From Thermoplasmata archaeon (GTDB lineage: Archaea; Thermoplasmatota; E2; DHVEG-1), in NCBI GenBank assembly GCA_003942085.1, contig DQIQ01000014.1:1-37321 (forward strand): a stretch of 37,321 bases of DNA. The letters run 5' to 3'. Below are positions 14,990 to 19,228 of the stretch, one piece after another. The position numbers were made by a program, and so were the translations under genes. The notes under the pieces are model-generated. The model worked only from the letters and a program-made list of their open reading frames with translations. It was not told the origin of the DNA and made no database searches. Each line of letters begins with the position of its first letter. Within the stretch, counting starts at the first letter, position 1.

Positions 14990-15637
14990 ATGGTTCAAAA
15001 AAAAGAAGCAATCTTTTCAGAGCAGAAAGGCATTTTCAGCATGGAAACAACCGTAAAGGCTTTACCGGTGGCTGACCCAGCACCGCTTGGTTTAATAGGT
15101 CTTGCTGTCGCGGCGTTGGTGCTTGCATCAGCTGACCTTCAGCTGGTGGCAAGTACTCCTTCAAAATCTTTGATGATCCCCTGGATCGTATTCTTTGGTG
15201 CGACCGCTCAGCTCATCGCTGGAGGTATGGAGTTTAAACGCAACAACATTTTTGGCGCAACTGTTTTTTCAGTCTATGCGATGACGATGTATTCGATTGC
15301 ACTTACCTTGGTCATTAACAACTCGTCAGTCGTCACACCAGGGAACCTTGCGCATTATGCGTATGGCCTCATCGGCATTCTTGCCTTCAGCATCATTGCA
15401 ACCATGGCATCGTTGATGACGAATAAGGCGCTGTTCGGTATATTGATCGCGGTTGATTTGGCGGTCGCTTTGCTCATTCCGCATTATCTCTACGAGATGT
15501 CTTCACTGCCTGCTGGCGTGTTCCTTCTGCTGACCTCGGTGTTATCGTTCTATGCTGCTGTGGCGGTCATTCTGAACACGATGGCGGGAAAGACGATCTT
15601 ACCTCTTGGGAAGGCGCTCTGGATTCCAAAAAAATAA
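14990..15637 (+). CDS. GPR1/FUN34/YaaH (AceTr) family acetate-transporter-like protein
   Basis: DPAPLGLIGLAVAALVLASADL...IPWIVFFGATAQLIAGGMEFKRNNIFGATVFSVY. Start may be the internal ATG at 15041. Confidence 0.85.
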   Translation: MVQKKEAIFSEQKGIFSMETTVKALPVADPAPLGLIGLAVAALVLASADLQLVASTPSKSLMIPWIVFFGATAQLIAGGMEFKRNNIFGATVFSVYAMTMYSIALTLVINNSSVVTPGNLAHYAYGLIGILAFSIIATMASLMTNKALFGILIAVDLAVALLIPHYLYEMSSLPAGVFLLLTSVLSFYAAVAVILNTMAGKTILPLGKALWIPKK

Positions 15638-15777
15638 CCTTGCATGGGAGATTCCAGTAAAAAATAATTGGCTTCACCAGAGGATTGCAGCGATCATAAA
15701 TAAGGAGTTTTATCTCCTTCTTTGTTCTTTTGTCAGTGCGCTTTTTTAAAAAGGGCAAAATAAAATATATAAAAAAA

Positions 15778-15785
15778 TTTATATA
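15778..15785 (+). promoter_or_regulatory. Candidate TATA box of orphan transcript
   Basis: AAAAAATTTATATACATG, about 30 nt upstream of the 15811 stem. Confidence 0.45.
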
Positions 15786-15807
15786 CATGTGTCATCAATA
15801 TATATTA

Positions 15808-15940
15808 TTAGAGAATGGGGGCAATAGTCTTTTTAAAACACATCTCCTCACCACCTCACTAACGACCCCATTCTCCCACTATCACAATAAAAAACACATT
15901 TCAAGCAGGAGATATATCATCGACTTTTTTATAGTTTTTT
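15808..15940 (+). ncRNA. Candidate small RNA with 5' stem and CU-rich anti-SD-like loop
   Basis: GAGAATGGGG (15811-15820) pairs perfectly with CCCCATTCTC (15866-15875); TATA about 30 nt upstream; T-runs at 15925-15930 and 15935-15940; loop contains CATCTCCTCACCACCTCAC. Confidence 0.4.
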
Positions 15941-15982
15941 AAATATTCAAAAAAATAAAATGAAAATGAGGAAGATAAAAAA

Positions 15983-17065
15983 TTACGAGTGATTAAGTGC
16001 AGCTTTCTCCACCCCAATGGTCAGCGCCCGCTGACACAGATACAGATGCACCGTGGTTTGCGTCATGCAGAGATCATACACCACTTGAGGATCGCTCGGC
16101 CGTCGTTCTTGCCCAACCTCTATCGTGTAGGAAATAACCCCTCGTGCGCGATATAGCCAATTTTCTGAGCTGCCCAGGGTTCCTCCAAACCTCTGAAAGA
16201 CATGATCCTTTTTCACAAACAAATAGTAATGATTTATCAACGAGATGTTTTCACCGACCGAGCGGAACAATGGCTCATCCGGTGTTTGTTTCGTGGTATG
16301 CATCCACGGATAGATGATGAACTCACCATACGAGTGGTAGGAAATCGAAAGGGAGATGTTGTGTACTTCTGCGAAGTTTTTAACGGCTTTGGTTTCATTT
16401 TCCGAAAAGGGATACGGACCACGATAATTGAAGCTTGAGTCAGGAAGAATGAACGGAAGGTTATAACTGACTGGGAAGATGTAGGCGAGGTACCACGGAT
16501 CCCCGTAGTTCCGGTTGAGATTGACTCCATAGGAAGTGATGGTTGCACTCCTCCCGAATGGCCCATGGTTCGGCGCGCAGTTTTTCCGCGAATCAGCTTC
16601 AACCCCATCTGGGTTCACCATTGGGATAAGATAGATCTGCGTGCTGTTGATGGCGCTACGTACTTCAGGGAGACTGTTGTTTTGATACTGTTCAACCATG
16701 TAGCGGATGAAGAACAGACATATCTCAATCCCCGGTCTTTCATCGCCATGATGCGCTCCCATTAACAGGACACCAGGTTCATTTTCCTCCTGGTTTACGT
16801 TATCAGAAAGCTTCACCATCCACAGGTCCCTTCCTTCGTATGTCTTCCCAATCGAGCTTAAAGACATGATGTCAGAGTAGTTCTCCTGCAGTGAGTGCAG
16901 CTCATCAGTGAGTTCTTGATACGTATGATAATGGTATGGTTCAAATGAGACGGTATTAAATGTTTGAGGGATCAACGCACTCGATAAAGGAGCCAACAGA
17001 AAGAAAGCGATGCAGCACACAGCAGATAGTAATCGTTTATGCGAAAGCAAGGCAGTATTCTTCAT
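15983..17065 (-). CDS. Secreted M14-family zinc carboxypeptidase
   Basis: MGAHHGDERPGIE (HxxE), YGVNLNRNYGDPW, SISYHSYGEFIIYPW, SYTIEVGQE; signal peptide. Start MKNTALL favoured. Confidence 0.9.
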   Translation of the reverse strand: MKNTALLSHKRLLSAVCCIAFFLLAPLSSALIPQTFNTVSFEPYHYHTYQELTDELHSLQENYSDIMSLSSIGKTYEGRDLWMVKLSDNVNQEENEPGVLLMGAHHGDERPGIEICLFFIRYMVEQYQNNSLPEVRSAINSTQIYLIPMVNPDGVEADSRKNCAPNHGPFGRSATITSYGVNLNRNYGDPWYLAYIFPVSYNLPFILPDSSFNYRGPYPFSENETKAVKNFAEVHNISLSISYHSYGEFIIYPWMHTTKQTPDEPLFRSVGENISLINHYYLFVKKDHVFQRFGGTLGSSENWLYRARGVISYTIEVGQERRPSDPQVVYDLCMTQTTVHLYLCQRALTIGVEKAALNHS

Positions 17066-17431: not shown

Positions 17432-19228
17432 ATGAAAGCACATCCTCTGACAGGGAAATGTCTGGCGGTTGGAATCATTCTACTGTTCATTGGAGTCAGT
17501 ATTATTCCTACTCTTGCTCAGAGTGGGAAGGAGCCATCTCAATCGACATTTAGCGAGAATTGGTGGTATGTCGGTGGTTCAGGCCCAGGGAACTATACCG
17601 ATATTCAGGATGCTATAGACAATGCAAGTGACGGAGACACCGTGTTTGTGTTCAATGGAACATACGTTGGTTATGTCATCCTCAACAAACCAATTAATCT
17701 CATCGGTGAGGATAAGAACACGACAGTTATCGCTGGATTTTTTGCCTATACCATTTCTATTGTCTCTGATGGGGTGACGATGAGTGGGTTTACTATTCAA
17801 AACAGTGGGCGGCTTGGTGAGGGCGTTAGAATAGATTCATCCTACAACAGCTTTTATAATAATATCATCGAGATCCCCAATGATAGAATACGGCTATCTG
17901 GCGACAACAACCTGTTCGCTGGTAACACCATCCTTGACAGCTATCTTTTTCTCTCTGGTGACCGCAACATCATTTCTGGCAACACCATTTCAAACATCTA
18001 TTATGGTATTTACTTCATTGATGCTTCTGACAACATAATTTCAAATAATTCTTTTTTTGGTTCTGGTCTGTTTATCTCCGATGATACGGTTTGGAACAAT
18101 AGTGTGACGAACAATACCGTGAATGGCAAACCACTCGTCTATGTCGATGACAAGTCCGATATGGTACTGAATGGTGATGCGGGGCAAATAGTTCTGGTCA
18201 ATTGTACCAATATCACGGTACAAAACCAAGAGATATCCAACACGACGGTCGGCATCCAGCTCTGGGGATCCAGCAGCTGTGTCATCTCAGGGAACACCCT
18301 TGCAGGGAACCATTATGGTATTAGCCTGTATGGATGGAACAACACCATAGATGACAACACCATCACCGATAACTATTATGGCATCAGTCTTACTGGTGAT
18401 CGCAACACCATCTCCGAAAACATAATCTCAGAAAACCAGGGTAACGGCCTCTACCTAGCGTATAGTGATCACAACAGCATTATCAAGAACACTATCACAA
18501 ACAACTCATATAGCATACTGCTGGATTATGGATGTGATTTCAACAACCTTATCGACAACACCATCATAAACAACAGTCATGCTGGTATCGGTCTTTCTGG
18601 TGACAGCGCTACTATTATTTCTGGTAACACCATCTCAGATAATGCTGATGGCATAGACATCTCGTATAGCGATCGCAACACCATCATCAATAACACCATC
18701 ACACAAAACAAGGGTAATGGCATAAACCTAGTTGACAGTGATTTCAATATCATCATCAATAACGATATCATCCACAACAATCAGGGAGGCATCCATCTAT
18801 CTGGTGATAACAACACGATTGCTGCTAACACCATCACACACGACTATTGCGGCATATACGTCCTGAGACATCAGTTCAACACGATCACAGACAATGATAT
18901 TGCTTGGAACAATGGGTCTGGTCTTTTCCTGAATCGTTCCATCGGTAACACTCTGTCCGGCAACAGCATTTCAAAAAATGGACACGGCATATATTTCGTG
19001 ACATCGACCAACAATACGGTCCTGAACAACAACTTCCTGAGAAACAATCGACATGCTTTTTTTGAAAACTGTACAAACGTATGGATTCATAATTATTGGG
19101 GGAGGCCACGGGTATTGCCTAAACTCATTTTTGGAACCAGAAGTACGCAGAATAACAGACTGTTTCCACCAATGGATGTTGACTGGCATCCTGCACTAAA
19201 ACCCTATGATATTCCAGATAAGAGTTAA
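17432..19228 (+). CDS. Secreted right-handed beta-helix protein (NosD/PbH1 repeats)
   Basis: Signal peptide; GPGNYTDIQDAIDNASDGDTVFVFNGTY; many GNTISDN/NTIxxNxI repeats. Confidence 0.9.
   Translation: MKAHPLTGKCLAVGIILLFIGVSIIPTLAQSGKEPSQSTFSENWWYVGGSGPGNYTDIQDAIDNASDGDTVFVFNGTYVGYVILNKPINLIGEDKNTTVIAGFFAYTISIVSDGVTMSGFTIQNSGRLGEGVRIDSSYNSFYNNIIEIPNDRIRLSGDNNLFAGNTILDSYLFLSGDRNIISGNTISNIYYGIYFIDASDNIISNNSFFGSGLFISDDTVWNNSVTNNTVNGKPLVYVDDKSDMVLNGDAGQIVLVNCTNITVQNQEISNTTVGIQLWGSSSCVISGNTLAGNHYGISLYGWNNTIDDNTITDNYYGISLTGDRNTISENIISENQGNGLYLAYSDHNSIIKNTITNNSYSILLDYGCDFNNLIDNTIINNSHAGIGLSGDSATIISGNTISDNADGIDISYSDRNTIINNTITQNKGNGINLVDSDFNIIINNDIIHNNQGGIHLSGDNNTIAANTITHDYCGIYVLRHQFNTITDNDIAWNNGSGLFLNRSIGNTLSGNSISKNGHGIYFVTSTNNTVLNNNFLRNNRHAFFENCTNVWIHNYWGRPRVLPKLIFGTRSTQNNRLFPPMDVDWHPALKPYDIPDKS

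Follow-up and report, generated by a model that had tools for sequence, protein, structure and literature searches.

To our knowledge, most of what has been learned about archaeal regulatory RNAs comes from a small number of species in culture, and MBG-D archaea are among the commonest uncultured archaea of sediments. The closest described systems are found in bacteria and in Methanosarcina. The cuckoo-type RNAs, or alpha-r14 sRNAs, of the Alphaproteobacteria are sibling sRNAs which, according to PMC10746234 (citing Reinkensmeier and Giegerich 2015), combine an ultraconserved unpaired anti-Shine-Dalgarno motif with highly different stems. Paralogous sRNAs of Neisseria likewise act as siblings (PMC5362039, PMC9973317). 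Among archaea, sRNA154 and sRNA41 of Methanosarcina mazei are intergenic sRNAs that mask ribosome binding sites (RBSs), and sRNA154 displays its anti-RBS sequence in a loop (PMC5867862).

The locus described here, at positions 15778-15942 of a 37,321-nt stretch of DNA from a Thermoplasmata archaeon (the window), is one member of a conserved structured-RNA gene family. Like the alpha-r14 RNAs, the family has a conserved unpaired anti-Shine-Dalgarno-like loop, varying stems and several copies, a likeness of architecture only, for which no homology is claimed. In contrast to the three hairpins and the CCUCCUCCC motif given for alpha-r14 RNAs, there is one hairpin here with the motif CUCCUCACCACCU, its loop also carries a U-run, and the promoters are archaeal; CCUCCUCCC is absent from the family loops, which have CUCCUCACCACCU instead. 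This would be an apparent convergence with the bacterial cuckoo-type sibling sRNAs. The Neisseria siblings are also bacterial, and the likeness to them is one of sibling paralogs only. The two Methanosarcina RNAs resemble the family in the role that we propose for the loop, but they have known targets, whereas the RNAs described here occur in multiple copies, belong to a different phylum, and gave no conserved target when one was searched for.

The RNA locus in the window

The locus lies between two convergent genes, as the earlier note on this DNA had reported and as Pfam agrees: upstream, a GPR1/FUN34/YaaH (AceTr-type) gene that ends at 15637 and, on the other side, an M14 carboxypeptidase gene on the minus strand whose coding sequence ends at 15983. 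The TATA-like box, the two stem arms, the C-rich loop motif and the T-runs (15925-15930 and 15935-15940) described in that note are all present in the sequence (Table 1). The stem is a perfect 10 bp enclosing a 45-nt loop, and the stretch folds at -23.9 kcal/mol (z = -3.26), with 0 of 200 shuffles as good. The locus very likely encodes a small non-coding RNA, some 70-130 nt long, and by sequence comparison the window copy is a member, of the type called A below, of a multi-copy sibling-RNA family specific to MBG-D-type Thermoplasmatota. The overlapping open reading frames had been taken as non-coding; among them, a 70-aa ORF (15730-15942) is not supported as a coding sequence because the loop lengths of the copies differ by numbers that are not multiples of three. 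We would also like to note that, after the M14 peptidase gene region, the window encodes a protein of 598 aa (17432-19228) that looks secreted and contains NNTI repeats of a beta-helix-like kind.

Table 1. Features of the type A RNA gene, in window coordinates.
Feature	Position	Strand	Basis
Promoter: A-rich BRE-like stretch, then TATA box TTTATATA (15778-15785)	15771-15785	+	Sequence; family TATA motif; conserved alignment block
Predicted transcription start, at hairpin foot	15805-15811	+	Suggested by TATA spacing, constant across paralogs despite changing spacer sequence
Stem 5' arm GAGAATGGGG	15811-15820	+	Sequence, fold, covariation
Loop U-run, possible SmAP/Lsm contact	15830-15834	+	U-run in nearly all copies; protein contact conjectural
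Unpaired conserved C-rich motif ACATCTCCTCACCACCTCAC	15840-15859	+	Invariant or >=90% columns, 44-sequence alignment; kept in nearly all copies, all paralog types
Core CTCACCACC of C-rich motif	15847-15855	+	As for the whole motif
Stem 3' arm CCCCATTCTC	15866-15875	+	Sequence, fold, covariation
Covariance-model match to family, full extent	15809-15879	+	68.7 bits
Type A RNA tail	15876-15924	+	Alignment: moderate conservation in genus, partial in two other genera
Probable terminator, T-rich CTTTTTTATAGTTTTTTAAA	15924-15943	+	Conserved in type A; role suggested by archaeal T-run termination

Family extent and stem covariation

The earlier note had called the RNA an orphan, which proved wrong. 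Searching at the DNA level turned up a second, diverged copy in the window's genome and matches in 38 of 59 relatives; that genome holds one or more further strong copies (C1:27933-28001), and other genomes commonly carry members of the family. A covariance model, R1, was built from 44 copies, and at E<=1e-5 it matches 47 of the 390 genomes of the phylum, including 43 of 45 in the window's own family. The same order has two sister families, and 3 of their 7 genomes match. Of the remaining 338 genomes of the phylum, a single one, from a different family of the class, gives a weak match. Genomes carry from one to about nine copies. Among named records, the pattern is found in Thermoplasmatota assemblies, SM1-50 and SG8-52-3 for example, both of which PMC6461988 assigns to Thermoprofundales/MBG-D. 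Three bacterial matches from a pattern scan of the collection look like chance, two of them lying at 18-19 bits among the matches listed.

Across the 44 aligned copies the anatomy is common, i.e., a stem of 10-14 bp, a U-run, a near-invariant loop core, and the closing stem, and the near-invariant unpaired loop motif of the family is CUCCUCACCACCU. In an unconstrained MAFFT alignment, 10 of 14 pairs show two-sided changes, in 34 cells against 11.2 in shuffled alignments, where cells are sequences counted and not independent events; sliding the partners as a control brought the number down to 3-12 cells. When 96 distinct copies were aligned to the model, 11 of 13 pairs show two-sided changes (100 cells versus 25.9 shuffled), an alignment that is fitted to the model and so leans towards structure. 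Compensatory changes, which the earlier note had proposed to look for in relatives, are found across about 95 distinct copies and arise in separate paralog types and genera; the 5'-arm variants GAGAATGGGG, GGATGGGG, GAGAACAGGG and GGGAAGGAGGG, for instance, each come with a matching 3' arm. The window copy has all of the features that mark the new family (a compensated stem, the U-run, a CUCCUCACCACCU-like loop, and a TATA box about 28-36 nt upstream).

No Rfam 15 family matches the window at the gathering score, nor, at E<=1, any of five loci chosen to represent different types, and a full-text literature search for CUCCUCACCACCU returned no paper. A C/D or H/ACA box guide RNA was considered and rejected, the aligned copies having no conserved RUGAUGA/CUGA pair and no ACA-ended hairpin, in addition to the absence of an Rfam match. 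From conservation, covariation, promoter spacing, and synteny together, we hold with high confidence that this is a real RNA gene family. The family is well supported and lineage-wide in MBG-D, its genomes have several paralogs each, the loop is strongly conserved, and Rfam does not list it; it gives sediment metatranscriptomes a defined object with a model for annotation.

Some divergent loci were noticed as well. In one genome (G034), two loci (L053:1986-2044 and L200:3053-3120) keep the C-rich loop apparently inside a longer nested hairpin, with outer arms such as TTGGGGAGTTG and CAACTCCTCAA, and perhaps represent an elaborated subtype. The second BLAST match in L036, missed by the model, is a possible distant relative; its loop reads CATCCCATCCCCTCCTAGTG, and a TATA-like box precedes it with roughly the spacing of the other copies.

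Promoter and predicted transcript ends

Scanning the region 28-36 nt ahead of the stem for a TATA-like motif gave 70 matches among 93 distinct copies, compared to 4.8 when the same upstream stretches were shuffled, and the sequence between TATA box and stem is variable while the spacing is kept. Because of this spacing, transcription would be expected to start at the foot of the hairpin, as had been suggested for the window copy, and the spacing is kept family-wide. Conservation of stem and TATA box in relatives, on which the earlier note had staked its proposal of an independently promoted small RNA gene, was looked for and both are conserved; with covariation and synteny, that proposal is now strongly supported. 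Archaeal transcription terminates at T-runs, and the type A copies have in common a T-rich block about 50 nt past the stem, which is probably their terminator.

Genomic positions of the copies

The copies group into intergenic position types that are common to different genera. Type A (12 loci) lies beside the M14 gene, and type B (21 loci) directly adjoins an HD-domain gene at its 3' end. Type C is found between a thymidylate-kinase-like gene and either a NUDIX gene or a PurQ-like gene, type D between PAS/histidine-kinase-like and alpha/beta-hydrolase-like genes, and type E after a ribosomal L37ae gene and before a Pcc1-domain gene. These gene names are from Pfam, except for PurQ and both names of type D, which were assigned by reading the sequences.

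In types A, B, and C the neighbours are convergent and the copy is close to their 3' ends, only a few bases from a stop codon in type B, whereas most copies of types D and E precede a gene on the same strand by about 70-140 nt. Positions of this kind would suit a cis element, which could serve the convergent neighbours as a hairpin terminator or as part of their mRNA 3' ends, or could be the leader of the gene that follows. However, the orientation of the neighbours differs by type and yet nearly all copies keep the TATA distance and the loop sequence, neither of which a terminator needs, and we consider a cis element very unlikely. For individual type D and E loci (e.g., L163, L166, L167, L182, L035, L042, and L048), read-through or cis-regulation is possible.

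Several copies per genome could also point to a mobile or MITE-like repeat. The copies nevertheless occupy orthologous intergenic positions in different genera and diverge in the manner of paralogs, and the pattern was searched for in viral contigs and not found. A mobile repeat was rejected on this cross-genus synteny and the absence from viral contigs, and we give it almost no weight. The orthologous positions between genera instead argue for inherited paralogs, not a mobile repeat or the terminator of one gene, and the copies are most readily taken as vertically inherited.

The loop, the 16S tail, and candidate targets

The earlier note had further proposed that the loop is anti-Shine-Dalgarno-like, and here the evidence is divided. 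The 16S 3' end of a relative in the genus is GGATCACCTCCT, and the loop sequence UCACCACCU is identical to the tail sequence UCACCUCCU at 8 of 9 positions in one stretch, but shuffled loops equal this likeness in 5-9% of cases. Within the 20 nt that precede start codons, hexamers that could pair with the loop are overrepresented (GAGGTG 18x, GTGAGG 11.8x, and GAGGAG 7.2x, for 668 genes in 800 kb of the complete relative G014), an enrichment biased by the fact that these starts were chosen partly by Shine-Dalgarno strength. The mean predicted pairing energy of the loop with initiation regions is -9.60, versus -8.90 (SD 0.38) for shuffled loops, an excess of only about 1.8 SD.

Searches for individual targets covered nine genomes of the genus and the 800 kb of G014. 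In the nine genomes, every occurrence of the exact 13-mer complement of the loop is the opposite strand of one of the RNA genes. When one mismatch was allowed, most sites in these genomes fell within coding sequence or antisense to it, and the few close to starts did not recur in orthologs. The patterns GGTGAGGA-ATG and AGGTGGTG-ATG are about 2-3 times commoner there than reversed controls, counts that include the antisense strands of the RNA genes, but this is the enrichment expected of any Shine-Dalgarno-like word, and no orthologous targets were resolved. A pairing scan of the G014 stretch gave no convincing target, and pairing with 16S rRNA at loci L234 and L237 gave no compelling site. 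An extended target common to orthologs was not found in the genus. It is plausible that the loop can pair with Shine-Dalgarno regions, and specificity for particular mRNAs would be a candidate property only.

Proposed function and alternatives

The likeliest function, to which we assign a probability of about one half, is that of trans-acting sibling sRNAs that mask Shine-Dalgarno sites. RNA polymerase would start at the hairpin foot and stop at the T-runs, and the hairpin would display a loop resembling the 16S 3' tail. The loop would pair with G-rich Shine-Dalgarno regions (of the GAGGUG or GGUGAGG type) in several mRNAs and so block 30S binding, perhaps assisted by SmAP/Lsm on the U-run. 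With several copies under different promoters and at different sites, the same regulator could respond to different conditions. A bolder version, which we regard as speculative and improbable, has the sibling RNAs of a genome, about nine at most, copying the 16S 3' tail with one base changed, as a dedicated multi-input system that would compete with ribosomes for a sub-class of Shine-Dalgarno sites.

The same resemblance could alternatively make the RNAs mimics of the 16S 3' tail with a global effect on translation, either by occupying Shine-Dalgarno sites at large or by binding factors that read the tail. The 8/9 identity, the overlap of the complementary hexamers with the Shine-Dalgarno core, and the several copies per genome are all consistent with such mimicry; the fact that 5-9% of shuffled loops reach the same identity, and that the conserved loop is longer than the mimicking stretch, argues against it, and we think this reading doubtful.

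The main rival to Shine-Dalgarno masking is a protein ligand, in which the U-run and the invariant CUCCUCACCACCU would bind one RNA-binding protein (SmAP or another), with the copies serving either as sponges or as the RNA component of an RNP. Such a role would explain equally well a loop that is nearly constant across the whole family while the stems vary freely, and it would agree with a conserved mRNA target having been searched for and none found, with pairing that barely exceeds that of shuffled loops, and with LSM genes that are nearly universal in these genomes. Nevertheless, there is one motif per RNA, unlike in CsrB-type sponges, we know of no protein that reads the CUCCUCACCACCU motif, and the anti-Shine-Dalgarno resemblance would have to be a coincidence. 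We consider a protein ligand somewhat unlikely and keep Shine-Dalgarno masking as the preferred reading.

LSM-domain proteins are the archaeal relatives of Hfq. Their genes were found in 36 of the 40 genomes searched and would fit the U-run of the loop. As a separate observation, an LSM-domain (SmAP) gene lies about 2.5-3.7 kb from a copy on the same contig in four genomes (L174 in G009, L022 in G017, L020 in G018, and L037 in G021).
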